DNA from: Pseudomonas neustonica
Lineage (GTDB): Bacteria > Pseudomonadota > Gammaproteobacteria > Pseudomonadales > Pseudomonadaceae
Direction of reading: 5' to 3'
Assembly: GCF_003797945.1 (NCBI RefSeq)
Contig: NZ_RKKU01000005.1
Coordinates: 124,001-188,000, forward strand
DNA length: 64,000 nt
Both the position numbers and the translations under genes were made by a program. The notes under the pieces are model-generated. The model was not told the DNA's origin. It searched no databases and saw nothing but the letters and a program-made list of their open reading frames with translations. Position 1 is the stretch's first letter. Every line of letters starts with the position of its first letter. Of this stretch, positions 17,508 to 52,370 are shown one piece after another.

Positions 17508-17514
17508 GTTTCTT

Positions 17515-17564
17515 GATCGTTCCCACGCTTCGCGTGGGAATGGCGCTCAGGTCGCTTCGCGTCC
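17515..17564 (-). repeat. TTCCCACGC hairpin repeat (copy 1)
   Basis: GATCGTTCCCACGC followed by a TT centre and GCGTGGGAA: a short perfect dyad, then a second smaller GC-rich dyad (TCGCTTCGCGTCC). Same two-hairpin unit as the copies at 40.5-41.1 and 51.9-52.3 kb. It lies just after the truncated AbrB gene, without the larger core element. Confidence 0.8.
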
Positions 17565-17628
17565 GGCTCGGTTGCCGACCAGAGGCAATCGAACCAGGGC
17601 GAGTAACTTGAGATCCCGCTTTACTCAG

Positions 17629-40448: not shown

Positions 40449-40465
40449 GGCGCCACTGCTAGCTT

Positions 40466-40516
40466 GATCGTTCCCACGCTCCAGCGTGGGAACCCAGTCC
40501 CGGACGCTTCGCGTCC
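40466..40516 (-). repeat. TTCCCACGC hairpin repeat (copy 2)
   Basis: GATCGTTCCCACGC-TCCA-GCGTGGGAAC hairpin then GGACGC-TTC-GCGTCC. Opposite orientation to the copies at 40636-41097, so the intervening block is bounded by inverted copies. Confidence 0.85.
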
Positions 40517-40635
40517 ATACCTGCCCCCCCTAAAATCAAGTGTCTGAACGAATACTGCCTAGCTGATTGAAGTGCAGACTGGTAGTTCGCCTTTCGCCCG
40601 AATGGCTGACGTGATCAATCCGCAATAGTCCAAAA

Positions 40636-40687
40636 GGACGCAGAGCGTCCTCACAGGCATTCCCACGCTGGAGCATGGGAACGATCA
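40636..40687 (+). repeat. TTCCCACGC hairpin repeat (copy 3)
   Basis: GGACGCAGAGCGTCC followed by TTCCCACGC-TGGAGC-ATGGGAACGATCA. The left boundary of the first core element. Confidence 0.85.
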
Positions 40688-40710
40688 ATCCTTGCGAAAC
40701 AGGTGACCTC

Positions 40711-40930
40711 TGCACAGCCCCCAAGTCCCCGTCTACGCGGGCGAGTAGCGCAGGGCTGGCGGGAAAAAGGTGCTCGCGGTGTCTGAGCGAAGCGAGTTTG
40801 CGAGCGGCCGGCTAGGTGTGCCCCGGCAGACCGAGCAACGCAGCGAACCCGCAGGGCCGTGTAGTTGGGGTGGCCTAGGGGGTGCAGGGGGAAATGGCCA
40901 AGCATTTCCCCTTGCTCGCCATCAGGCGAA
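40711..40930 (+). repeat. Structured dispersed element, copy 1 (candidate ncRNA)
   Basis: About 220 bases sharing blocks (ACGCGGGCGAGTAGCGCAGG, GTCTGAGCGAAGCGAGTTTG, GAGCGGCCGGCTAGGTG) with 51993-52214. Stems: CTACGCGG (40733-40740) with CCGTGTAG (40857-40864); CTGGCGGG (40756-40763) with CCCCGGCAG (40821-40829, imperfect); GGGGAAATG / CATTTCCCC (40888-40911); TCGCC-ATCA-GGCGA (40916-40929). No convincing coding potential. Role is unknown. Confidence 0.7.
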
Positions 40931-40987
40931 AGGCTGATTTGAATACGCAGCAGCGGTACGAGATAGACGCAGAGCGCCAAGAGATGC

Positions 40988-41016
40988 ATTCCCACGCAGG
41001 AACATGGGAACGATCA
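40988..41016 (+). repeat. TTCCCACGC hairpin repeat (copy 4)
   Basis: ATTCCCACGCAGGAACATGGGAACGATCA-type unit just right of the first core element. An ATGCATT precedes it. Confidence 0.8.
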
Positions 41017-41046
41017 TTACCGCACCGAATGAAGCAGAGTTGGTAC

Positions 41047-41097
41047 GGACGCAGAGCGTCCTAGGCGGAGTTCCCACGCAGAACGTGGGAACGATCA
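41047..41097 (+). repeat. TTCCCACGC hairpin repeat (copy 5)
   Basis: GGACGCAGAGCGTCC, 8 bases, then GTTCCCACGCAGAACGTGGGAAC and GATCA. Right boundary of the repeat block. Confidence 0.85.
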
Positions 41098-41135
41098 GGG
41101 TCAGCAGCGTGCCAGCATCAGCGCGCCAGCACCAA

Positions 41136-42503
41136 TCACTTACCCAACACCAACTCCCGCGACAGCAAGTTATGCTCCTCAATAATCAACGGCAGCTCCC
41201 GCGTCAGCAGACGCCCATCCTCAATCACCTGCCGCCCATTGATGATGCTGTGCGCCACCCGCTGCGGAGTACAAAACACCAATGCCGCCAACGGATCAGC
41301 TAGGGCACCGGCCATTGCAATGTCATCGGTACGAAAGGCAATGATGTCGGCGCAGTAGCCTGCCTGAATACGGCCCAGCGCATCCTCGCGACCCAATACT
41401 TCGGCCCCCCCACGGGTGGCGATATACAGCGCCTCGCGTGCACTCATCGCACCGGGGTTTTCATCGCGCACCCGCGCCGAGAGCATCGCCTGGCGAGTTT
41501 CATCGAGCAGGTTATTGGTGTCATTCGAGGCGCTGCCATCTACACCCAGCCCGACTTTTACACCTGCATCCTTCATCTTGCGGATCGGCGCGATACCCGA
41601 GGCCAGCCGCATGTTGGAGCAGGGGCAGTGCGCCACGCAGGTACCGGTGCGCGCGAACAGCGCAATGCCCGCATCATCCAGATGCACACAGTGCGCATGC
41701 CACACATCAGCCCCGACCCAACCGACCGACTCGGTGTACTCGGTCGGGGTCATGCCATAGCGCTCCTTGCTGAAGGCCAGGTCCTTGGCGTTCTCGGCGG
41801 TGTGGGTGTGCAAGCCAACGCCGCAGGAGCGTGCCAGCGCAGCGCCTTCGCGCATCAGGTCGGTAGTGACGGTGAAGGGTGAGCAGGGGCCAAGCGCGAC
41901 CTTGATCATGGCGTCGGCCGCGCTGTCGTGCAGATCTTCAACCACGCGCTGCATTTCCCGAAGAATCGCCTGTTCGTCCTGCTCGACCAGGGCATCCGGC
42001 GGCAGCCCGCCCTGGCTCTGGCCCAGGCTCATGGCGCCGCGCACGGCGTGAAAGCGCATGCCCATTTCCTCGGCGGCCTGCACGCTGTCATCCAGCCGCG
42101 TGCCGTTCACATAAAGATAAGCGTGGTCCGCCGCCGTGGTGCAGCCTGACAACATCAACTCCGCCATAGCGGTACGAGTCGCAGCACGCTGCATCGCCGG
42201 AGTGATGTTCTGCCAGACCGGAAATAGCGCGGTTAGCCAGTCGAACAGCTCGGCATTCTGCGCGGCGGGCAGGGCGCGGGTCAGCGACTGAAACATGTGG
42301 TGATGGGTATTGATCAGGCCTGGGATCAGCACGTGCCCGGTCATGTCGATGACTTTATCAGCCTCACTCGGCAGCTCGCTAGCGGGGCCAACGGCCTCAA
42401 CCTTGTTGCCCCGGATGAATACTGACGCGTTGGCCAGCTCACGCAACTGGTCATCCATAGTGCCGATTACCAATGCATTTTTCAGCAGCAGAGTTGCTGT
42501 CAT
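41136..42503 (-). CDS. 8-oxoguanine deaminase
   Basis: A 455-residue zinc amidohydrolase. HxH at H67/H69 (INTHHHMFQSLTRALPAAQN), His in HTHTAENAKD, and catalytic Asp in LGVDGSASND. The HMFQSLTRALPAAQN segment and the RGAMSLGQSQGGLPPDAL stretch are what I recognise from the Pseudomonas 8-oxoguanine deaminase, which gives urate directly. It could therefore feed PuuD. Its own operator (42527-42542) and a sigma-54 candidate lie upstream. Confidence 0.83.
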   Translation of the reverse strand: MTATLLLKNALVIGTMDDQLRELANASVFIRGNKVEAVGPASELPSEADKVIDMTGHVLIPGLINTHHHMFQSLTRALPAAQNAELFDWLTALFPVWQNITPAMQRAATRTAMAELMLSGCTTAADHAYLYVNGTRLDDSVQAAEEMGMRFHAVRGAMSLGQSQGGLPPDALVEQDEQAILREMQRVVEDLHDSAADAMIKVALGPCSPFTVTTDLMREGAALARSCGVGLHTHTAENAKDLAFSKERYGMTPTEYTESVGWVGADVWHAHCVHLDDAGIALFARTGTCVAHCPCSNMRLASGIAPIRKMKDAGVKVGLGVDGSASNDTNNLLDETRQAMLSARVRDENPGAMSAREALYIATRGGAEVLGREDALGRIQAGYCADIIAFRTDDIAMAGALADPLAALVFCTPQRVAHSIINGRQVIEDGRLLTRELPLIIEEHNLLSRELVLGK

Positions 42504-42526
42504 TTCAAAACCCTTATTCAGATTAA

Positions 42527-42542
42527 TTGACCATTAGGACAG
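42527..42542. promoter_or_regulatory. RutR-like operator, site C
   Basis: TTGACCA-TT-AGGACAG, 24 bases before the 8-oxoguanine deaminase start. Exact left half-site; right arm has two changes. Confidence 0.6.
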
Positions 42543-42563
42543 AAAATATTGACAGCTAAAGCA

Positions 42564-42579
42564 TGCAATTATGAGGCCG
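42564..42579 (-). promoter_or_regulatory. Candidate sigma-54 promoter of 8-oxoguanine deaminase gene
   Basis: Read leftward: CGGCCTCATAATTGCA, with GG-N10-GC and a perfect TTGCA -12 box. Operator C lies 23 bases downstream. Confidence 0.5.
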
Positions 42580-42699
42580 CTGAAACCGATGTTAAATACG
42601 CTGGCCAGCCACTTTATTGCCCCTAATCCGCGCATTATCGATCACGCAAAGCTCAAAACCAGAGCACTCGTAATTTGATAAGGGCCTTTAATTAATCAC

Positions 42700-42715
42700 T
42701 GGCACGCGCTTTGCT
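42700..42715 (+). promoter_or_regulatory. Sigma-54 promoter of oxygenase 2
   Basis: TGGCACGCGCTTTGCT matches the consensus TGGCACG-N4-TTGCW perfectly. Nearly the same sequence occurs at 44414-44429. Confidence 0.85.
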
Positions 42716-42724
42716 TTTCAATAA

Positions 42725-42740
42725 CTGATTATTTGGTCAG
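42725..42740. promoter_or_regulatory. RutR-like operator, site D
   Basis: CTGATTA-TT-TGGTCAG, beginning 11 bases after the -12 GC, thus over the expected transcription start. Confidence 0.75.
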
Positions 42741-42940
42741 GTATTTAGGCTTACCACTCTAATGCCCGGTTGGAAAGCTAAGTCCAGCACTTGGCTGCGC
42801 CACCCTCGCGCTCTGAAAAGGGCAAGAGACATATATTGCCACGCAGCCGCTATCACCTCAGATGCGCGACTTTTCTAGGCAGGCGGGGTAATTCTGTGCC
42901 TGCGTACTTCAATACATCATGTACACCATAGGGAGATGAC

Positions 42941-43903
42941 ATGACATCGCTACCCATTATTTCGATCGCTGGCTTAAACAGCGAAAACCCTGCTATCCGC
43001 TCCGCTACTGCCGCAGAGCTGGGCAAAGCTTGTCGCGAGGTTGGCTTTTTCTATGCTATCAACCACGGTATTGCAGATCATGTAATGGCTGGCGCTTTCA
43101 GTAATGCAAAGTCGTTTTTTGAGCTGCCGCTGGAAACCAAACAGTCGCTATCAATCAAGCTGTCGCCACACGATCGCGGCTACGTAGCCATGGCTGATGA
43201 GAAGCTCAACCCGGACGCGGGCGCCGACATGAAAGAAGCCTTCAATATTGGGACTGACTTCCCGGCGGACCATCCGGAAGTCGTCGCTGGGAAACCCTTT
43301 CGCGGGGTTAATTTCTGGCCAACCATCGAGGGCTGGAGAACCTATATGCTGGAGTATCACCAGGCTTGCCTGGACCTTGGCCAGCTAATTCATCGCGGCT
43401 TTGCAATTGATCTTGGCCTAACCGAAAACTTTTTTGACGCTCACCTGGCAGAGCCTATCGCGACTTTGCGAATGCTGAGATATCCGGCTAGTACTGACAC
43501 CGAGCATCGCGCCCGCGAAGATGCCGGGGCTGGCGCTCACACGGATTATGGCAACCTGACCCTGCTAGCCACTGATAAGGTCGCTGGCTTGCAGGTAGCG
43601 ACTCGTAAGGGCCAATGGATCGACGCGCCACATATTCCCGGCGCGTTCGTCTGCAATATCGGCGACTGCCTGATGCGTTGGTGCAACGATACTTATGTTT
43701 CAACGCCTCACCGTGTAAAGGCGCCAGAGCAAGAGCGTTACTCCCTCGCTTTCTTCCTTTCGGTTGATCCTGACTCCACGGTCGATCCCCGTGATGTAAT
43801 GCCAACCGAACAACCCAAGTATCCGCCAATCAGTTGCGGCGATTACTTGGCCTATCGTCTCAACGAGACTTATGAGCACCGCGTAGACATTGACGCAACA
43901 TAA
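42941..43903 (+). CDS. Isopenicillin N synthase-like Fe(II) oxygenase 2
   Basis: A 320-residue paralogue of oxygenase 1 with two extra residues before the iron site. Ligands H200-x-D202 (GAHTDYG) and H257, co-substrate R266-Y-S268. The first 23 coding bases are identical to those of oxygenase 1. Codon choice is visibly more A/T-ending than in its neighbours (for example GCT, GAT, AAT), suggesting a separate history. Monocistronic with its own sigma-54 promoter and operator. Confidence 0.87.
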   Translation: MTSLPIISIAGLNSENPAIRSATAAELGKACREVGFFYAINHGIADHVMAGAFSNAKSFFELPLETKQSLSIKLSPHDRGYVAMADEKLNPDAGADMKEAFNIGTDFPADHPEVVAGKPFRGVNFWPTIEGWRTYMLEYHQACLDLGQLIHRGFAIDLGLTENFFDAHLAEPIATLRMLRYPASTDTEHRAREDAGAGAHTDYGNLTLLATDKVAGLQVATRKGQWIDAPHIPGAFVCNIGDCLMRWCNDTYVSTPHRVKAPEQERYSLAFFLSVDPDSTVDPRDVMPTEQPKYPPISCGDYLAYRLNETYEHRVDIDAT

Positions 43904-43969
43904 AACGCGCCGGTAAACGGTTAGCGTGTAATTTGAACACTGCGATCCGTGCCAATAATGAAAGCGATG

Positions 43970-44000
43970 AACCCAACGTCAGATAACTACGTTGGGTGTT
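43970..44000 (+). terminator. Stem-loop after oxygenase 2
   Basis: Inverted repeat AACCCAACGT / ACGTTGGGTGTT 66 bases after the stop; no T run follows. Confidence 0.5.
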
Positions 44001-44413
44001 AAATCGTTCGACACCACGCAGCAAAACACTAGCCACGCAGATTATTTGACCGAAAGGACAGGAAAATACCCGGGGCACAAAGCGCAGTGGCGCGACCGCC
44101 AACCACACGCTGAAAACGGACTATTTCAGCGCAACATTGCACCTAACTGGAGCATGCCGCACATCAAACCCGGCAAATACGTACCAGACCAGCGGACTCT
44201 CCATCCGGAGAGTACATTGTCATGATAAATAGCATCGCCCCCTAGATCTCTTGCTCGTGCTGAAACCTAACCTCATTACCCTCCCGCACTACCAAGAGCC
44301 AGCGCAACATGAGGCTCAATCCGAAACGTTAAGTCTCTGCCACAAAAATCACATCCACCGTGCCCTCAATGGATGGGATCCAATCCAGCCTCACGTCCGC
44401 TCTCTCAAACAGC

Positions 44414-44429
44414 TGGCACGCGCCTTGCT
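44414..44429 (+). promoter_or_regulatory. Sigma-54 promoter of oxygenase 3 operon
   Basis: TGGCACGCGCCTTGCT, consensus match with GG-N10-GC spacing. Differs from 42700-42715 at one position. Confidence 0.85.
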
Positions 44430-44438
44430 TTTCAATAG

Positions 44439-44454
44439 CTGATTAGTTGGTCAG
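44439..44454. promoter_or_regulatory. RutR-like operator, site E
   Basis: CTGATTA-GT-TGGTCAG, 11 bases after the -12 GC, the same geometry as site D. Confidence 0.75.
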
Positions 44455-44561
44455 GTTATGAGTCATGTCGCCCTACTCATGGGTTCGAAGGCTAAACCAG
44501 GGGCCTCGTGCGATGAAGCACGCGGTTAGCTGCTTCACGTGAACCTGCAGGAGACATGAGT

Positions 44562-45491
44562 ATGGCAGAGCAACAAAACGCGATTCCGGTCATCGACTTT
44601 TCACCTTTTATCGACGGCAATCCAGCCGAGCGCAAAGCGGTGGCGGCGCAAATGCGCCAAGCCAGCAGCGATTGGGGTTTCTTTTACCTCGCGGGTTGCG
44701 GCATGCCCGAAGGTAACCTGCGGGAGGCTTTTGCTGCCTCGCAGGCGTTATTTGCGTTAAGCGACGACGCCAAGCAGGCCGTGGCCTGGCAGAGCGCCGA
44801 AAGTAATCGTGGTTACGTGGGCGTGCGCCGCGAACGGCTTGACCCGAGCAAGCCCGGCGACCTCAAGGAAGCTTTTAATCTGGCGCCCGAGCAGCCGGGC
44901 GGCGCGCCCAACCTGTGGCCCGTCGAGCTGCCCGCGTTTCGCCCGCAGATGGAGGATTTTCTGCAGCAATGCGTCGCCACAGCCGACGGCGTGCTGCAGG
45001 CCTTCGCGCTGGCATTGCAGCAGCCAGAGGACTTTTTCGTCAGCGCCCATAATCAGCATCACCACACCCTGCGGCTGTTGCATTATCCGGCGCTGCCCGA
45101 CAGTTTCAACGCCCAGGCCGGAGAGAGCCGGGCGGGTGAACACACCGACTACGGCAGCATCACTTTGCTGTTTCAGGATACCGCCGGCGGCCTCGAAGTG
45201 CGTACCCGCGCTGGCGAATGGATCGCCGCCACTCCGATCCCCGGCACCGTGGTGGTGAATACCGGCGACTTGATGCAGCGCTGGACCAACCACGTATTTT
45301 GCTCCACCCCGCACCGCGTCAACCTGCGCTCAAGCCACCGCGAACGCTACTCCATCGCCTTCTTTTGCCACCCCAACCACAGCGCCAACATCCGCTGCAT
45401 CAGTACCTGCAGCGATGCCGAGAATCCACCACGCTACGCGCCGATCAGCGCTGGCAACCACCTGCTTGAACGCCTTAACGCTACTTACTGA
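44562..45491 (+). CDS. Isopenicillin N synthase-like Fe(II) oxygenase 3
   Basis: A 309-residue member with iron ligands H194-x-D196 (GEHTDYG) and H251, and R262-Y-S264. More divergent than the 38021/42941 pair; it lacks their ADMKEAFNIGTDFP segment and has LKEAFNLAPEQPGG. An ATG at 44556 is only 2 bases from AGGAG, so 44562 (8-base spacing) is preferred. It is followed closely by a binding-protein gene, linking uptake and oxidation of one compound. Confidence 0.85.
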   Translation: MAEQQNAIPVIDFSPFIDGNPAERKAVAAQMRQASSDWGFFYLAGCGMPEGNLREAFAASQALFALSDDAKQAVAWQSAESNRGYVGVRRERLDPSKPGDLKEAFNLAPEQPGGAPNLWPVELPAFRPQMEDFLQQCVATADGVLQAFALALQQPEDFFVSAHNQHHHTLRLLHYPALPDSFNAQAGESRAGEHTDYGSITLLFQDTAGGLEVRTRAGEWIAATPIPGTVVVNTGDLMQRWTNHVFCSTPHRVNLRSSHRERYSIAFFCHPNHSANIRCISTCSDAENPPRYAPISAGNHLLERLNATY

Positions 45492-45515
45492 TTGACCCTG
45501 ACAGGAGTATTACCC

Positions 45516-46502
45516 ATGCAGCACAGAGGATTGAAACTCACCGCCCTGGCCCTCGCGCTGGGCTTTAGCGCGGCCAGCGCCAGCGCCGCCGACCTGACCC
45601 CGGTTACCGTAACCACCACCTGGTATGCGCAGGCCGAACACGGCGGTCTTTACGCCGCCAAGGCTGCTGGCATCTACGAACAGCACGGACTGGATGTCAC
45701 CATCAAAATGGGTGGCCCGCAGGTCAACAACGTGCAACTGCTGATGGCCGGCAAGACCGACTTCAGCATGGGCTATGCGCTGCAGTCGCTGAACGCGGTC
45801 AAGCAGGACATTCCCATGGTCACGGTGGCCGCCTGGTTCCAGAAGGACCCGCAAACGCTGGTGGTGCACGAAGGCGCTGGCATCGATGATTTGGCCGACC
45901 TGGAAGGCAAGGGCATTCGCATGCCGACCGCCGGACGAGTGGCCTACTGGCCATGGATGAAGGCTGAATACGGCTTTAGCGATGATCAGTTACGCCCCTA
46001 TGACTACAGCTTCGGCCCCTTTATCACCGATCCCGAAGCAGTGCAGCAGGGCTATGTGACCAACGATGGCTATTTCCTCGACAAGGCCGACGTCAAGGGC
46101 AAAAGCCTGCTGCTCGCCGACTTTGGCTGGGGCGCCTACTCCTGCACGCTGGACGTTACACAGCAGTTGGTGGACGAGAACCCCGAGGTGGTGCAGGCCA
46201 TGGTCGCTGCGACAGCAGAGGGTTGGGCCGCTTATTTCCGGGATCCGGCGCCAGCAAATGCGCTGATCAAGCAGGACAATCCGGAAATGCAGGATGACCT
46301 GCTGGCCTACAGCATTGCCAAGCTGCAGGAGGACGACATTTTGCTGGCGGGTGACGCTGAGGGTGGCAAGTACGGCAACATGACGGAGGCGCACTGGCAG
46401 ACGTTCTTCGATGACATGGTGAAGGCCGAGACCCTGCCGGCAGATCTGGCCTGGCAGAAGGCCTTTGATCTGCGCTTTGTACGCGCGCTTTATCCGGAGT
46501 AG
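45516..46502 (+). CDS. NMT1/THI5-type ABC solute-binding protein 1
   Basis: A 328-residue exported binding protein: 24-residue signal ending ASA, then VTTTWYAQAEHGGLYAAKAAG, and GGPQVNNVQLLMAGKTDFSM, a pattern shared with pyrimidine-precursor (ThiY) and flavin-precursor binders. AGGAG precedes the start. No ATPase or permease adjoins; it likely shares the importer at 55956-57628. Closely resembles the proteins at 49391 and 54850. Confidence 0.87.
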   Translation: MQHRGLKLTALALALGFSAASASAADLTPVTVTTTWYAQAEHGGLYAAKAAGIYEQHGLDVTIKMGGPQVNNVQLLMAGKTDFSMGYALQSLNAVKQDIPMVTVAAWFQKDPQTLVVHEGAGIDDLADLEGKGIRMPTAGRVAYWPWMKAEYGFSDDQLRPYDYSFGPFITDPEAVQQGYVTNDGYFLDKADVKGKSLLLADFGWGAYSCTLDVTQQLVDENPEVVQAMVAATAEGWAAYFRDPAPANALIKQDNPEMQDDLLAYSIAKLQEDDILLAGDAEGGKYGNMTEAHWQTFFDDMVKAETLPADLAWQKAFDLRFVRALYPE

Positions 46503-46512
46503 GTAATAAGCC

Positions 46513-46548
46513 AAACAACAAGGGCGCCTGCGGGCGCCCTTGTTGTTT
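46513..46548. terminator. Bidirectional rho-independent terminator
   Basis: AAACAACAAGGGCGC / GCGCCCTTGTTGTTT perfect 15-bp stem with a short loop, flanked by A and T. It ends the oxygenase 3 operon and the convergent hydrolase operon. Confidence 0.9.
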
Positions 46549-47294
46549 CAGCGTTTCGCGAAATTCAGCAGCGCATCGGCAACGGCATCGGTGGCCACCA
46601 CCTGCGGCACGTGCCCGGTCTCCAGGCTGACCACCTCGGCCCCCGGCATCAGTTGCTGCATGCGCCGCTGCACCGGCAAGACCACCGACCTGTCCTGGGT
46701 CGCCTCGATATACAGACGCGGCAGCCGGCCAAAGCGCTCCGCTGTCCATTCGGCCACCAGCGCGCGGGTGCCTTCTGGCTGCGCGCAAAAACGCTGCGCG
46801 GCAGCCATGGCCTGCTCACGCGGTAGATCCTGCAAAAATACTTCGCACACCGCCTGGGGCGGTACCGTGGAACTCTGCCGATCATCGCTCCACTGCAGAT
46901 GTGGCCAGATACCCGCAGCCTCCGGGTGCTGCTTCTGTGCCTCATCGGCCAGCTCGGCAAAGCCCAACCCGCTGGGCAGCATCATGCCGGCGATATAGGC
47001 CACGCCCAGTACCCGCTCAGCCAGGGTCTCGGCCAGCTGGGTGGCAATCACGCCGCCGCCGGAGTGGCCAACCACCAGTAGTGGCCCGCTAACCTCGGCG
47101 CAGCAGGACTGAAGATGAGCAATGCAGCCCTGCATGGTGAGCTGCGCGGCAGCTGCCGGGTGCATTGGGTTACCGGGCATATCCGGCGCGATGACGGCAT
47201 GGCCCTGATCTTCCAGCAGCGTTCGCAGGCTGTCCCACACCCAGCTACCAGCCCAGGCGCCGTGGATCAAAACGAAAGTTGGCGACTTAGGCAT
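46548..47294 (-). CDS. Alpha/beta hydrolase (esterase/salicylate-type)
   Basis: A 248-residue alpha/beta-hydrolase. FVLIHGAWAGSWVW oxyanion region near the start, nucleophile Ser in VGHSGGGVIA, late Asp in EATQDRSV, and catalytic His in ETGHVPQ near the C-terminus. It resembles the methylesterase/hydroxynitrile-lyase-type group. The frame is open to 47408, but the 47294 ATG starts the domain and overlaps oxygenase 4 by 8 bases. Likely co-transcribed with oxygenase 4. Confidence 0.85.
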   Translation of the reverse strand: MPKSPTFVLIHGAWAGSWVWDSLRTLLEDQGHAVIAPDMPGNPMHPAAAAQLTMQGCIAHLQSCCAEVSGPLLVVGHSGGGVIATQLAETLAERVLGVAYIAGMMLPSGLGFAELADEAQKQHPEAAGIWPHLQWSDDRQSSTVPPQAVCEVFLQDLPREQAMAAAQRFCAQPEGTRALVAEWTAERFGRLPRLYIEATQDRSVVLPVQRRMQQLMPGAEVVSLETGHVPQVVATDAVADALLNFAKR

Positions 47295-48258
47295 AGGTTC
47301 TCCGATACATGTCTTGCAGGTGCTGCTCCACCGTGGTCGCCGGGTATTTAGGCACTTCGCCTGCCACCAGACAGCCCGGCAAACAACGCACCTCGTGTGC
47401 CGATGCACCGCTGTAGAAGAAGGGCACCGAGTAGCGCTCGGCGCCGGAGGTGTTGATCACCCGGTGCAGCGTCGAGCGATACAGGTCGTTGGTCCAGCGC
47501 GCGATCATGTCACCGAGGTTAACCACAAAAGCACCGGGGATCGGCGGGGCGTCAATCCAGCTTTCATCCCTGGCGTTCCAGACCTGCAAACCGGGTTTGT
47601 CGTCGAGCAGCAAAATGGTGATGCCGCCAAAATCGGTATGCGCGCCGCAGCCCTTTTCGCCGGGTAGCGGCTGTTCCGGTTGCGGTGGGTAATGCAGTAG
47701 GCGCAGCGTGCACATGGGGTCAGTGCAGAAGTCGGCGAAGAAGTCTTCGGGCAGCTCCAGCGATAACGCTAGCCCGGCCATGATGCGTTCACTCAGCGCC
47801 AGCATGGCGGTGTAATAGTCCTGCATCGCCAGCTTGAAGTCGGGCAACTGCGCGGGCCATTGATTGGGGCCCTGATTAAAGCGTCCGGCGCGGACGTTCG
47901 GGTGATCGGCGGCCAGCTCTTCACCAATGTAGAAGCCTTCTTTCAGATCGGGCGGCATGCCGGGCTCCAGCGTCTGACCACCGAGCTTTTCATAGCCGCG
48001 ATTGGCCTTTGACTGCGCCTTGTCCGTTTCCAGCTTGGCGTCCATTGGCTGGGCAAAGAATTGCTGCGACTGCGCAAACACGCGCTGGATCAGCGCTGGA
48101 TCAATGCCATGCCCGCTGACGTAGAAAAACCCGGTGTGCTCGCAAGCCTCGCGCAGGGCCAGCCCCACGGCTACCTTATCCTGCGCTACGCCGCCCAGCA
48201 TGGGGCTCAAGTCGATGACCGGCAGCGTGTCTGCCGAGGAGGGATGTTGTGCTGCCAT
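47287..48258 (-). CDS. Isopenicillin N synthase-like Fe(II) oxygenase 4
   Basis: A 323-residue member with iron ligands H207-x-D209 (GAHTDFG) and H265 (STLHRV), and R275-Y-S277. It has DLKEGFYIGEELAADHP, closer to oxygenases 1 and 2 than to 3. Operator F (48310-48325) lies 52 bases upstream. Forms a two-gene operon with the hydrolase. Confidence 0.87.
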   Translation of the reverse strand: MAAQHPSSADTLPVIDLSPMLGGVAQDKVAVGLALREACEHTGFFYVSGHGIDPALIQRVFAQSQQFFAQPMDAKLETDKAQSKANRGYEKLGGQTLEPGMPPDLKEGFYIGEELAADHPNVRAGRFNQGPNQWPAQLPDFKLAMQDYYTAMLALSERIMAGLALSLELPEDFFADFCTDPMCTLRLLHYPPQPEQPLPGEKGCGAHTDFGGITILLLDDKPGLQVWNARDESWIDAPPIPGAFVVNLGDMIARWTNDLYRSTLHRVINTSGAERYSVPFFYSGASAHEVRCLPGCLVAGEVPKYPATTVEQHLQDMYRRTYA

Positions 48259-48309
48259 TATCAGTAAGGCTCCTATGTTGCGTAACGCGGGAAAATGCCA
48301 ATGTAGTTA

Positions 48310-48325
48310 CTGTCCAACTGGTCAG
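48310..48325. promoter_or_regulatory. RutR-like operator, site F
   Basis: CTGTCCA-AC-TGGTCAG between divergent oxygenase 4 and the flavodoxin-like gene. A degenerate leftward sigma-54-like element (TGGCATGCAAAATGA) is at about 48330-48344, weaker than the others. Confidence 0.65.
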
Positions 48326-48411
48326 GTATTCATTTTGCATGCCAACCTGCAGAAAAGCGCCATAGCTGCATTCAGCACGGCAAAACTCATCATCACTCCC
48401 GAGGAAACCCC

Positions 48412-49068
48412 ATGAGCCAGTCACGCGTTACCATCGTTGTCGACTCCCGTTACGGCAGCACTCTGAGCCTGGCCAAGGCAATCGCCGAAGGCGTAGCCAG
48501 CGAACACGCAGAGGTACGACTGCGCCGCGTGGCGCTGTCCGAGCCTGAATTCAGCGTCGATACCGAGCGCGCCGATTTCATTGCCGCACAAACCGAATAC
48601 CGCAGTCTGGAGCAAGCCAGCGCCGCCGATCTGGAGTGGGCTGGTGGCATCATCTGGGGCTCACCCACGCGCTACGGTTTGATGAGCACGCCGCTGCGAG
48701 CCTTTATCGACGAAATCGCCCCGCTGTGGCGCCAGGGCGCGCTGATCGGCAAGGTGGGCGCGGCTTTCACCTCTACCGGCGGCATGCATTCAGGTAACGA
48801 GATGACCCTGCTCAGCCTGCTTTTGCCCTTTATGCAGCACGGTATGCTGCTGGCTGGCGTGCCCCATAGCGTGCCGGAGCTGGTGCATACCCGCAGCGGC
48901 GGCTCGCCCTACGGCGCCTCGGCGGTAACCGGTTTTGACGGCAGCCTGGGCGTCGATGCCGGTGAGCTTGCCATCGGCCGCGCACTGGGTGCGCGCGTGG
49001 CGCGCATCGCCTCGCAGATTATTGCCGAGCCCTCCTCGGTTGATATGGCCGCCGGCCAGTCACACTAA
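48412..49068 (+). CDS. WrbA-like flavodoxin-family oxidoreductase
   Basis: A 218-residue flavodoxin-fold protein. FMN phosphate loop near SRYGSTLSLAKAIAEG, GSPTRYGLMSTPLRAF and STGGMHSGNE match the WrbA/NAD(P)H-quinone reductase pattern, but it has an insert (DTERADFIAAQTEYRS) and is more divergent than wrbA at 9122. Close to operator F, so it may be part of the purine regulon, perhaps as a reductase; inferred. Confidence 0.8.
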   Translation: MSQSRVTIVVDSRYGSTLSLAKAIAEGVASEHAEVRLRRVALSEPEFSVDTERADFIAAQTEYRSLEQASAADLEWAGGIIWGSPTRYGLMSTPLRAFIDEIAPLWRQGALIGKVGAAFTSTGGMHSGNEMTLLSLLLPFMQHGMLLAGVPHSVPELVHTRSGGSPYGASAVTGFDGSLGVDAGELAIGRALGARVARIASQIIAEPSSVDMAAGQSH

Positions 49069-49224
49069 GCCGCTCGAACAGCCGCCGGGCTATTTCATCT
49101 CGTCCGGCGGCAGCGCCGCACCTTGTCTCTTTGCAGTGCAACTGCGCAGAAAATGCTGCAATGCAGTGCAGCTAATTTGCTGACTCTTTGTTCAGGAAAT
49201 ACTAATCAAGCCATAAAAGCGCCA

Positions 49225-49240
49225 TGGCATAGCTATTGCT
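49225..49240 (+). promoter_or_regulatory. Sigma-54 promoter of solute-binding protein 2 operon
   Basis: TGGCATAGCTATTGCT, GG-N10-GC with TTGCT -12 box. Operator G begins 28 bases after GC, further than at the other promoters. Confidence 0.7.
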
Positions 49241-49266
49241 TCTGGGTTTGCCACGTCATCGAAAAA

Positions 49267-49282
49267 CTGATTATCCGGTCAG
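49267..49282. promoter_or_regulatory. RutR-like operator, site G
   Basis: CTGATTA-TC-CGGTCAG, same left arm as sites D and E; one change in the right arm. Confidence 0.7.
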
Positions 49283-49390
49283 TTTATGCGCTGTCAGAAC
49301 AACAAGTTCATCGCAATGAACAACTGAGCCTGATTCTGGCTCCATCAACGCCCGTCCAACCTAATACCAATCACAAAGCAGGGGTAATTG

Positions 49391-50449
49391 ATGAACAAGG
49401 TATCACCAGCAAACAACTCTCTCAGCGGCGTACGCGCCCTGACCAGAACCGCCGGCGCGCTGCTGCTTGGCGCAATCACGTTAGCAGCGCCGATCAGCGC
49501 TTCGGCCTTGGAGAAGGTCAGCTTCCGGACCAACTGGTTCCCGCAAGCCGAGCACGGTGGCTGGTATCAGGCGGCCACCGACGGCACCTACGAAAAGTAC
49601 GGTCTGGAAGTGGATCAACAGCCAGGCGGCCCACAGGTCAACAACCTGCAGCTGCTGCTGGCCGGTCGCGCCGACTTTGTGGTTCTGCACTCCAGTGGCC
49701 AAATTCTCAAAGCCATCGAAGAAGGCTTGCCCATCGTCGCCGTTGCTTCGATGTACCAGAAAGATCCCCAAGCCATCATGACCCACAAGGGCGTAGGCCA
49801 CGACAGCCTGGAAGACCTCAAAGGCGAGCCAATTCTGCTGTCACAGGATGCTCACCAATCGTTCTGGCCCTGGCTCAAGCAAAAGTACGGCTACACCGAT
49901 GAGCAGGTGCGGCCCTATACCTTTCAGATGGGTCCCTTCATCGCTGACAGCAGCCTGACACAACAGTGCTACGTGACCTCCGAGCCCTTTGTGGTGCAGC
50001 AGGCCGGTATCGATCCCAACCTGTTCCTGCTATCGGACTTTGGCTGGCAGTCGTACTCAACCCTGATCGTGACCACTACGGAAATGGTCAAGGAGCATCC
50101 TGAGCGGGTGCAGAACTTCGTCAATGCCTCGGTTGAAGGCTGGTACCGCTACCTCAACGACCCCAGTGAAGCCAATGCCGTGATCAACACACTGGACGCC
50201 AACCAAACTCCAGAACAACTGGCCTTTTCCTTCAAGGAGATGACCGAGCGCGGCATTGTTGCCTCGGGGGATGCAATGGAAAACGGGATAGGCACCATGA
50301 ACGATGCGCGCTGGAAAGCCGCCAGTGAGCAGCTGAAAAGTATCGGCCTGCTGAGTCAGGACACTGACTACACCAAGGCCTTCACTACCGAGTTCGTCAA
50401 CTCCGAGCATATCAAGGAGCTGATGGCCAAGTACCCGACCGCCCAATAA
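49391..50449 (+). CDS. NMT1/THI5-type ABC solute-binding protein 2
   Basis: A 352-residue exported binding protein with a long N-terminus (signal ending about residue 39, ISASA). FRTNWFPQAEHGGWYQAAT and GGPQVNNLQLLLAGRADFVV align with binding proteins 1 and 3. AGGGG precedes ATG 49391. The downstream deaminase is 63 bases away behind a hairpin, so this binding protein and that deaminase likely act on the same compound. Confidence 0.87.
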   Translation: MNKVSPANNSLSGVRALTRTAGALLLGAITLAAPISASALEKVSFRTNWFPQAEHGGWYQAATDGTYEKYGLEVDQQPGGPQVNNLQLLLAGRADFVVLHSSGQILKAIEEGLPIVAVASMYQKDPQAIMTHKGVGHDSLEDLKGEPILLSQDAHQSFWPWLKQKYGYTDEQVRPYTFQMGPFIADSSLTQQCYVTSEPFVVQQAGIDPNLFLLSDFGWQSYSTLIVTTTEMVKEHPERVQNFVNASVEGWYRYLNDPSEANAVINTLDANQTPEQLAFSFKEMTERGIVASGDAMENGIGTMNDARWKAASEQLKSIGLLSQDTDYTKAFTTEFVNSEHIKELMAKYPTAQ

Positions 50450-50458
50450 CCCCGCCGT

Positions 50459-50488
50459 AGTCCCGGCACGCTGCTGCGTGCCGGGACT
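50459..50488 (+). terminator. Intercistronic hairpin (attenuator or mRNA-stabilising)
   Basis: Stem AGTCCCGGCACG / CGTGCCGGGACT with a CTGCTG loop between the binding-protein and deaminase genes. It would give more binding protein than enzyme, as is common in such operons. Confidence 0.6.
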
Positions 50489-50512
50489 GTGTTTATTCAG
50501 AGGCAATACCCC

Positions 50513-51904
50513 ATGCACAACCCGGTCACAGCGAACAGCAAGCAACAGGTGCTGATCGCCGAAACCCTGCTCCCCATGACACCCGACAATGCCGTGATCA
50601 ATCACGGCGCCGTACTGGTAGAAGGCCAAAAAATCCTTGCCGTTGGCCCCAAGGCCGAGATTATCGCTCTGGCACCGGACGCTGATCGCCATGACTACGG
50701 TCGCGCTGTATTGATGCCAGGCCTGATCAACACCCACAGCCATTCCGGCTTTCTGCGCGGTACTGCAGAAGACCTGCCAGTGTGGGACTGGCTGCGCCTT
50801 TTTATTGATCCCATGCACCGCGTGCTGACTGCCGAAGACGCCGAAATTGCGTCCTGGCTGTGCTACTCCGAAAGCCTGCTATCCGGCACCACCACTTCGG
50901 TCGATATGTGGCGTCATATGGCCGGCTCGGCGCGCGCCGCTGAAGCGCTTGGCAACCGCGTGGTCATGGTGCCCTATGTCGGTGAGGCTGAAGGCTACGA
51001 TTACTTCGATACGCTGGATGACAACGAAGCGCTGATCCAGCAATGGCACGGCAAGGCCGATGGCCGCATCAACGTTTGGGTCGGGCTGGAGCACATGTAC
51101 TACGCCACGCCCGAAGCCTGCACGCGGGCCGTGGCCATGTGCGAGCGCTACAGTACCGGCCTGCATACCCACTCCAACGAAGCCGAAGCAGAAATCGGCG
51201 AAGCCATGAAACGCTTTGGCTGCAGCCCCATCCGCGCACTGGAACGCCTGGGCCTGCTGGAGCCGGAACGGGTTCTGCTGGCGCACTGCGTGTGGCTGGA
51301 TGAAGACGAAATCGCCTTGCTGGCCGAAAAGAACATCGGCGTCGCACACAACCCGTCGAGCAATATGAAACTGGCTAGCGGCTCGGCACCCATCGAGCAA
51401 CTGATCGCCGCCGGTGTCGCTGTGGGGATAGGCACCGATGGCGAGAAAGAGAACAACAATCTGGACATGCTCGAGGAGATCAAAATCGCCTCATTGCTGG
51501 CTAAATTGCGCTGTATGGACGCCGCCGCCTATGGCGCCTGGAACGTGCTGCGCAGCGCTACCATCGAAGGCGCGCGCGCCATCGGCATGGCTGATCAGAT
51601 CGGCTCGCTGGAGCCGGGCAAGCAGGCCGACATCATTGCCGTACGCGCCGATACGCCGCGCATGACACCCTTCCTCACCGACGGCCCCTTCATGAACGTG
51701 CACCACAATATCGTGCACAGCGCGCTCGGCGGCGACGTTAGCATGACCATGGTCGCGGGCCGCATCGTGATGCAGGACCAACAACTACTGAACGGCGACC
51801 TGTCGCGCTACATGAACGACGCCGAAGCTGCCTGCCGGGCTTTGCTGGAACGACGAGCTGCCTGGTTGGCGGAACATGAAGATGGGGCGTTATCGCCGCT
51901 GTGA
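50513..51904 (+). CDS. Amidohydrolase-family deaminase
   Basis: A 463-residue zinc hydrolase: HxH at H75/H77 (INTHSHSGFLRGTAED), VGLEHMYYATP, GLHTHSNEAEAE, and Asp in GIGTDGEKENNN. Paralogue of the 36650 protein but with Glu/Lys-rich TDGEKEN loop, implying a different base. GAGG before the 50513 start. Second gene after binding protein 2. Confidence 0.85.
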   Translation: MHNPVTANSKQQVLIAETLLPMTPDNAVINHGAVLVEGQKILAVGPKAEIIALAPDADRHDYGRAVLMPGLINTHSHSGFLRGTAEDLPVWDWLRLFIDPMHRVLTAEDAEIASWLCYSESLLSGTTTSVDMWRHMAGSARAAEALGNRVVMVPYVGEAEGYDYFDTLDDNEALIQQWHGKADGRINVWVGLEHMYYATPEACTRAVAMCERYSTGLHTHSNEAEAEIGEAMKRFGCSPIRALERLGLLEPERVLLAHCVWLDEDEIALLAEKNIGVAHNPSSNMKLASGSAPIEQLIAAGVAVGIGTDGEKENNNLDMLEEIKIASLLAKLRCMDAAAYGAWNVLRSATIEGARAIGMADQIGSLEPGKQADIIAVRADTPRMTPFLTDGPFMNVHHNIVHSALGGDVSMTMVAGRIVMQDQQLLNGDLSRYMNDAEAACRALLERRAAWLAEHEDGALSPL

Positions 51905-51919
51905 AAGAACAGGCGTGAA

Positions 51920-51971
51920 GGGACGCAGAGCGTCCCGACATGCGTTCCCACGCAGAGCGTGGGAACGATCA
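51920..51971 (+). repeat. TTCCCACGC hairpin repeat (copy 6)
   Basis: GGGACGCAGAGCGTCCC then GTTCCCACGCAGAGCGTGGGAAC and GATCA. Left boundary of the second core element. Confidence 0.85.
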
Positions 51972-51992
51972 AAAGGCTTACCCTCCCAGCCT

Positions 51993-52214
51993 ACACAGCC
52001 CCCCAATCCCGTTTACGCGGGCGAGTAGCGCAGGCTCATTGGGGAAAACGTGCTTGGACTGTCTGAGCGAAGCGAGTTTGTGAGCGGCCGGCTAGGTGCG
52101 CCCCCAATGAGTCGAGCAACGCAGCGAACCCGCAGGGCCGCGTAGTCGGGTGCCCCGGGGGATCGCTAAGGGGGGCCGGGCAAACGGCCCCCCTTGGCTC
52201 GCCGAAAGGGCGAA
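51993..52214 (+). repeat. Structured dispersed element, copy 2 (candidate ncRNA)
   Basis: Second copy of the 40711-40930 element. Stems: TTACGCGG (52013-52020) with CCGCGTAG (52138-52145); CTCATTGGGG (52035-52044) with CCCCAATGAG (52102-52111), perfect here; AAGGGGGGCCG / CGGCCCCCCTT (52168-52195); TCGCC-GAAAG-GGCGA (52199-52213). Several arms differ from copy 1 but still pair. Confidence 0.72.
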
Positions 52215-52280
52215 AAACGAATTATCCGTCTGCACCGCAATGAGCATAACCACGACTTGGAGCTCCATCTAGCAGGGACA

Positions 52281-52331
52281 GACGCGGAGCGTCGAGGGAT
52301 TCATTCCCACGCAGGAGCGTGGGAACGATCA
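52281..52331 (+). repeat. TTCCCACGC hairpin repeat (copy 7)
   Basis: GACGCGGAGCGTC then TTCCCACGC-AGGA-GCGTGGGAA and CGATCA. Right boundary of the second core element. Confidence 0.85.
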
Positions 52332-52370
52332 ACCCGCGAATGCATCCCAGGCCGAGCACCCACCGCAAAC

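Follow-up and report, generated by a model that had tools for sequence, protein, structure and literature searches.

The analysed window, 64,000 nt of the Pseudomonas neustonica genome (RefSeq assembly GCF_003797945.1, contig NZ_RKKU01000005.1, positions 124,001 to 188,000 of the forward strand), contains two blocks of a branched repeat of about 205-235 nt, for which we use the working name T element (T). The stems of T covary with a bias toward one strand, its copies are dispersed and tend to lie in head-to-head pairs, and the DNA enclosed by such pairs is low in G+C. On balance, we slightly favour the reading that T supplies the inverted ends of a non-autonomous mobile cassette, that these structured ends are recognised through their fold as single-stranded DNA, and that the window holds two lone ends. 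Beyond the observations, we infer that the folded form would be DNA, that a protein would recognise the fold, and that a pair would be the moving unit.

Both blocks, together with every sequence singled out in a preliminary description of this DNA, were located in the window sequence. A DNA search of the source genome gave 46 matching pieces, from which 26 T copies were taken, and a covariance model (R1) was built from 23 own-genome copies only. R1 found 33 matches in this genome and, above the noise, only the two blocks within the window (copy 1, 40727-40931, 181 bits; copy 2, 52007-52215, 186 bits); both are training copies of R1, and such matches are by construction. The two elements and their parts are as follows.

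40711..40931, + strand: T element copy 1, a lone end from TGCAC to GGCGAAA (R1 match and sequence)
51993..52215, + strand: T element copy 2, a lone end (R1 match and sequence)
40743..40753, + strand: conserved internal-loop strand GAGTAGCGCAG, copy 1 (partner strand CGAGCAACGCAG at 40832-40843)
52023..52033, + strand: conserved internal-loop strand GAGTAGCGCAG, copy 2 (partner strand at 52113-52124)
40756..40829, + strand: hypervariable helix P2, copy 1 (arms 40756-40763 and 40822-40829, one G.G mismatch)
52035..52111, + strand: hypervariable helix P2, copy 2 (arms 52035-52044 and 52102-52111, 10/10 paired)
40780..40799, + strand: P4 hairpin TGTCTGA-GC(GAA)GC-GAGTTT, copy 1 (C(GNA)G triloop)
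52060..52079, + strand: P4 hairpin, copy 2 (C(GAA)G triloop)
40888..40911, + strand: 3' hairpin P6, copy 1 (GGGGAAATG/CATTTCCCC; arms 40888-40896 and 40903-40911)
52168..52195, + strand: 3' hairpin P6, copy 2 (AAGGGGGGCCG/CGGCCCCCCTT; arms 52168-52178 and 52185-52195)
40915..40931, + strand: terminal hairpin CTCGCC(N4)GGCGAAA, copy 1 (sequence)
52198..52215, + strand: terminal hairpin CTCGCC(N5)GGCGAAA, copy 2 (sequence)

The preliminary description had proposed that the arms of these stems still pair where the two blocks differ. The P2 arms CTCATTGGGG/CCCCAATGAG of copy 2 and the P6 arms of both copies pair perfectly, and the CTGGCGGG/CCCCGGCAG pairing of copy 1 is real except for the G.G mismatch, one in 8 pairs. 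The closing TCGCC/GGCGA hairpin is retained at 40916-40929 in copy 1 and 52199-52213 in copy 2, with loops of different length. The fold of copy 2 is better than that of 200/200 dinucleotide shuffles (z of -4.3 as RNA and -3.6 as DNA), while that of copy 1 is less clear (z of -2.4, with 3/200 shuffles equally good).

Two copies are insufficient to show covariation; it was confirmed on the 23 aligned copies of the source genome and on 48 copies from other loci. A structure of 56 pairs in the 23-copy alignment has 98.0% of its cells paired, compared to 91.6% in shuffles (standard deviation (sd) 0.4), 23 pairs changed on both sides (11.6 shuffled, sd 1.8) and a covariation score of 0.282 (0.149 shuffled, sd 0.008). 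None of 500 shuffles equals any of these three values, so that aligning the genomic copies, as had been suggested, gave a significant signal, and pairing falls to 30-46% when the partners are slid along. Because the structure was derived from the same alignment, P2 was tested separately on the other-locus copies, which are 48 of 92 eligible copies from beta- and gammaproteobacteria (several from Halopseudomonas) with the helix laid out by eye. In this set, 94.0% of the P2 cells are paired compared to 56.4% in shuffles, 10/10 pairs are changed on both sides, and the covariation score is 0.901 against 0.198 (sd 0.022). Over 122 distinct cores (130 minus 8 duplicates, with at least 12 of the 122 from Halopseudomonas-type records), P2 is 93.2% paired and drops to 53% with the 3' arms exchanged between copies. 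Up to six standard pair types occur at single positions of an alignment from four genomes of the genus, which uses 55 of 72 sequence windows. The GAGTAGCGCAG strand is invariant or nearly so across the own-genome alignment; it also belongs to the pattern used for the cross-genus search, and its conservation in that set is by construction.

The G-U pairs indicate which strand is folded. When the own-genome alignment is folded on the + strand, it contains 107 G-U and 20 A-C cells, and on the opposite strand these counts become 16 and 73; P2 in the 122 cores has 59 G-T and 2 A-C. This excess on the + strand and its reversal on the other imply that one strand is the folded one, which speaks against mutation alone as the source of the pairing.

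The loops bear on the nature of the folded molecule. In the 122 cores, a C(GNA)G triloop caps 90/118 P4 and 73/119 P5 hairpins, and the loci of the genus showed the same loop in 52/63 P4 and 59/68 P5 hairpins. Among all 368 hairpins, GNRA-type tetraloops occur twice and C(UNCG)G not at all. A G-C second pair (GCGNAGC) is present in 72 of the 90 P4 hairpins with C(GNA)G, and in these 72 the complement therefore does not form a closed UNCG tetraloop. According to passages of two papers, d(GNA) loops closed by a C-G pair are stable triloops in DNA, and their counterpart in RNA is GNRA (PMC5815330; PMC11101458). The loop type is thus a lead toward folded DNA, short of proof.

We regard it as unlikely that T is instead a functional RNA, whose outward copies would terminate, stabilise or insulate passenger transcripts at their 3' ends. 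The fold does lie on the outward-read strand, its strong G-U bias is what an RNA would show, and by our own reading a T-run follows the outer stem in some T2 copies (a second class of T, described below). Against this stand the prevalence of the C(GNA)G triloops, the many lone T copies, and pattern scans that found no promoter or terminator at either window block. In addition, T is sense to tandem neighbour genes in 26 cases and antisense in 23; this orientation count classifies 82/143 copies, leaving out 38 at edges, 13 far from genes and 10 inside open reading frames (ORFs). Given the loops, the scans and the sense/antisense balance, folded DNA fits better than RNA. The preliminary description was right about the covariation and the conserved structure with changed sequence, and its mention of a folded DNA form fits better than its title of a candidate structured RNA.

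The arrangement of T copies became clear from a cross-genus set of at least 118 loci, a sample collected with a pattern that fixes two conserved motifs and leaves orientation, helices and loops free. R1 detects 187 T in the 118 loci. Within 2.5 kb there are 67 T neighbours, in head-to-head (61), tandem (4) or tail-to-tail (2) orientation. The interval enclosed by the head-to-head pairs is either short (70-187 bp, 41 pairs) or gene-sized (446-1975 bp with small ORFs, 20 pairs). Neighbours less than 200 bp apart in six genomes of the genus, a count based on 183 of the 206 matches reported, are head-to-head in 17/19 cases. The flanks just outside a unit are mutual inverted copies of at least 30 bp in 15/55 units, compared to 7/163 swapped comparisons (55 of the 61 pairs). 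The preliminary description, with only two copies in view, missed both the pairing and the enclosure of genes. The source genome also contains the T2 copies, which have the T architecture with other stems and face T across ~75-100 bp. One copy (L004, G000:C12:78763-78975) combines the outer parts of the first class, T1, with a T2-like middle, and modules thus appear to have been exchanged between the two classes. By eye, the spacer between the two T of some Gallionellaceae-type units (L114, L124, L149, L161) carries palindromes of its own.

Each of the 20 gene-sized intervals has a G+C content 0.03 to 0.19 below that of the remainder of its locus, and for 18 of them no window of equal length in the locus is as low. 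The Pfam search covered 20 enclosed (cargo) proteins from 18 intervals, namely 16 of the 20 and two of the source genus, with L103, L123, L130 and L160 outside the scan. Seven proteins score over the Pfam cut-off, as Mrr_N, DUF4145 (twice), DUF3800, PD40, Mrr_cat (E 1.7e-31) and HTH_3, and matches to DUF2971 and HEPN fall just under it; NCBIfam gave two sub-threshold matches for ten cargo proteins. As a control, ten host ORFs comparable in size to the cargo were taken from its own loci; 8 of them belong to ordinary Pfam families and 2 to none. With PADLOC matches counted at E up to 0.01, the control gave one strong match (to a candidate family, the member being a Pfam 5'-nucleotidase) and one weak one. 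The cargo matches are to PD-T7-4 (1e-6), to a type IV restriction enzyme (3e-25) and one weak, besides a PD-T7-4-like anti-phage gene between head-to-head T in Pseudomonas abyssi (L138:6906-7430, E 8e-68). The cargo differs from its neighbourhood in G+C and in the scarcity of named families; a bias toward defence is not shown by the counts, with no enrichment over the control in PADLOC. A 98-amino-acid HTH_3 protein, also between head-to-head T (L334:1419-1715, G032), reads like a HigA antitoxin, a label of our own.

T is dispersed within and beyond the genus. At the DNA level, it occurs in 10/36 other genomes of the genus (one marginal) and in 0/21 from the rest of the order. Up to 45 matches were counted in a single genome. 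Near-identical copies occupy sites with unlike flanks, as in L304 and L306 (97%, both G034), and copies of different genomes reach 98.5% identity despite unlike flanks. Measured from the start of the GAGTAG motif, the likeness mostly stops 15-43 bases upstream and 181-207 bases downstream. At the C56 locus, T lies between two conserved genes in the source genome and is absent, also by an automatic search of the empty sites, from 26/26 other genomes (21 of the genus and 5 of the order) in which both flanks were found. In otherwise near-alike T copies (L303-L358), the 8-9 nt between GCAC and CCCG, upstream of GAGTAG, are highly divergent. Across genera, the 80 loci listed include Halopseudomonas, Pseudomonas abyssi, Methylophaga, Methylobacillus, Gallionella, Sideroxydans, Rhodoferax, Curvibacter, Hylemonella, Hydrogenophaga, Lysobacter and unclassified beta-/gammaproteobacteria. 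R1 matches these loci mostly at full length; the lowest E-value within the genus is 2e-52, and those of other genera run from about 6e-35 to 2.5e-4. Judged by sequence, the T family is spread over beta- and gammaproteobacteria. A plasmid and phage search with a window copy gave no match; five pattern matches were found in viral contigs, of which R1 matches two at full length and a third in a marginal, partial way.

We propose that a complete unit would comprise two T head-to-head, with the 3' ends outward, around a short spacer or one to a few passenger genes. At each T, the recognised strand would be the one whose 3' end faces outward, folded in single-stranded form, most likely as DNA arising in replication or transposition. 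With the fold under selection, the stems could drift while pairing is kept, and the branched fold would be the recognition site for a trans-acting recombinase or transposase that mobilises the unit. Such fold recognition has parallels in the integron integrase, which recognises attC, and in TnpA, which recognises the hairpins of IS200/IS605 insertion sequences. This model of paired folded ends explains the drift with retained structure, the strand bias, the DNA-type loops, the pairing and the foreign-looking cargo. The model alone does not explain lone T, such as the two that would remain in intergenic DNA of the window; in our own reading, these may be remnants or one-ended insertions.

Several results weigh against this reading. 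No movement was observed. Of the 20 cargo proteins, 13 have no Pfam family over the cut-off and none belongs to a recombinase or transposase family (16 of the 20 gene-sized intervals), and PADLOC matches 4/20 of them compared to 2/10 control ORFs. The commonest neighbour gene cluster lies near T in only 9 of the 118 loci. In 53/118 loci, T has no T neighbour within 2.5 kb, and neighbours 200-2500 bp apart in the source genus are head-to-head 7 times, tandem 8 times and tail-to-tail once. Most of the tandem intervals inspected there hold apparently ordinary host genes, as does one head-to-head interval with a G+C of 0.63 (G021 C19:215254-217555). Target duplication is not beyond chance around T or, in 55 of the 61 pairs, around T pairs. 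The strong G-U bias is equally expected of RNA, and there is no lagging-strand bias (22 vs 29) in 51 listed copies, which are 22/26 copies of G034 and all 29 of G032. Extra terminal repeats beyond chance were likewise found neither at T nor at the pairs.

The blocks had also been described as flanked by TTCCCACGC double hairpins, which resemble repetitive extragenic palindromic (REP) sequences, and a link to a REP-associated tyrosine transposase (RAYT) had been suggested. The hairpins of the GGACGC.. / TTCCCACGC.. type, all separate from T, lie near the blocks at the following positions.

40465..40518, - strand: REP-like double hairpin
40637..40687, + strand: REP-like double hairpin
40966..41016, + strand: REP-like double hairpin
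41048..41098, + strand: REP-like double hairpin
51922..51972, + strand: REP-like double hairpin
52281..52332, + strand: REP-like double hairpin

They do flank both window blocks, but 57/71 T copies in four genomes have none nearby, and the congener G008 has abundant TTCCCACGC/GGACGC hairpins with no T match. These hairpins are a separate REP-like family and not part of T. A further double hairpin of this type is found in the window at 17512-17565.

It seems to us improbable that a RAYT, a Y1 transposase, moves T as a large element of the REP type. This reading would accommodate the REP-like hairpins adjoining 14/71 T copies, the REPIN-like look (REPINs being paired, inverted REP sequences) of the T pairs, and the frequency of Y1 genes, present in 32/37 genomes. 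Y1 is, however, absent at threshold from 3/24 T-positive genomes (present in 21/24), a T-motif match lies near only 4/30 Y1 loci, each a single motif with one mismatch allowed, and at none of the 30 does T flank the Y1 gene on both sides. The two Y1 loci of the source genome have no T match nearby. The suggested link, with RAYT as the driver, was not supported by Y1 presence or by the Y1 loci: Y1 genes do not track T. In the best-matching copy of a RAYT-like gene (G000:C26:21871-22506; L061, L367-L393), the putative catalytic tyrosine is replaced in each of 8 aligned T-rich genomes, the source genome included, which also speaks against RAYT. It is kept in the other 19 genomes aligned, the T-poor G030 among them; two of the 8 carry a stop in the gene, and the loss common to the 8 may reflect shared descent.

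We give little credence to a family of trans-acting small RNA genes, which would suit the size, covariation and wide spread of T. No promoter was found by pattern scans of the blocks and inspection of the spacers by eye, and up to 45 matches per genome without a fixed neighbour are hard to reconcile with it; a fixed gene context, as for a cis-regulatory RNA, was not seen in the loci either. The preliminary description recognised no named RNA family, in agreement with Rfam 15, which gave 0 matches in the window at the gathering threshold and, at a permissive E-value, no match overlapping a T element in ten loci.

Similarly doubtful is a retroelement resembling short interspersed nuclear elements, copied via RNA by a reverse transcriptase. 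The RNA-type G-U bias and the near-identical dispersed copies would be expected of it; the head-to-head pairing is hard to account for, and no target duplication is seen. The reverse transcriptase family RVT_1 is absent at threshold from 5/10 T-positive genomes of the genus (G002, G016, G030, G032 and G034, of which G032 and G034 are single-contig assemblies) and present in G000, G006, G010, G021 and G033; a reverse transcriptase as the driver shows no association with T. Finally, template switching between hairpin arms, which keeps complementarity without selection and could produce perfect arms wholly different between copies, predicts neither the one-strand excess of G-U over A-C nor a loop type kept across genera, and is very improbable.

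As inverted ends of a mobile unit, T would in kind be nearest to mobile insertion cassettes (MICs), with ends unlike any known to us. MICs (e.g. MIC231) and miniature inverted-repeat transposable elements (MITEs) are likewise non-autonomous, with inverted ends, empty or carrying passenger genes, and no transposase inside. The 41 short and 20 gene-sized intervals (16/20 Pfam-scanned) share this layout of inverted ends with no gene or a passenger gene and no transposase. No autonomous element with T ends was found among the Pfam-scanned intervals, and no neighbour gene is dominant. In contrast to MICs and MITEs, the T ends are ~200-nt branched folds under structural selection rather than short terminal repeats, and T shows no target duplication. 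Some transposases make no target duplication; its absence therefore lowers, without excluding, a MITE or MIC reading.

Integron cassettes (see PMC8352920) resemble T units in that structure is kept over sequence, the attC sites are folded single-stranded DNA, and single passenger genes mostly have no known function. In contrast to the one attC per cassette in direct order, each unit has two inverted T, 61/67 T neighbours being head-to-head; the fold is larger and branched, and no long cassette array was seen. REP sequences, their mosaic elements (BIMEs) and REPINs with RAYT (see PMC2817692, PMC3116915 and PMC3733652) are likewise intergenic, palindromic and arranged in inverse pairs. T is far larger than a 20-40 bp palindrome, branched, able to enclose genes and not linked to RAYT. 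The ends of IS200/IS605 (see PMC6006769) also carry subterminal hairpins recognised on single-stranded DNA, but T ends are inverted rather than on the same strand, show no lagging-strand bias and have no TnpA found inside.

A literature search found no description of T or its cassettes in the text accessible to it, in which subscription journals were thinly covered, so that absence from print is not shown; short T motifs searched as text matched only unrelated titles among those listed. T is a repeat of beta- and gammaproteobacteria without an Rfam entry that apparently forms paired folded ends of units with small foreign-looking genes. If this is true, head-to-head T offer a search handle for unrecognised cargo, defence genes included. 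T would also show selection acting in nature on an elaborate fold of single-stranded DNA, and finding the enzyme would be a defined problem. More tentatively, T pairs could be the recombination ends of an undescribed gene-capture system of beta- and gammaproteobacteria, whose recombinase would read a 200-nt branched single-stranded DNA fold and move low-G+C genes one at a time, including some of an anti-phage or toxin-antitoxin-like kind. Such a system would parallel integrons, but structure and not sequence would define its ends.

In the window, the T copies lie amid repeated amidohydrolase-, 2-oxoglutarate-oxygenase- and NMT1/SsuA-like genes (36575-56831, by our own reading), surroundings that perhaps belong to purine or pyrimidine catabolism.

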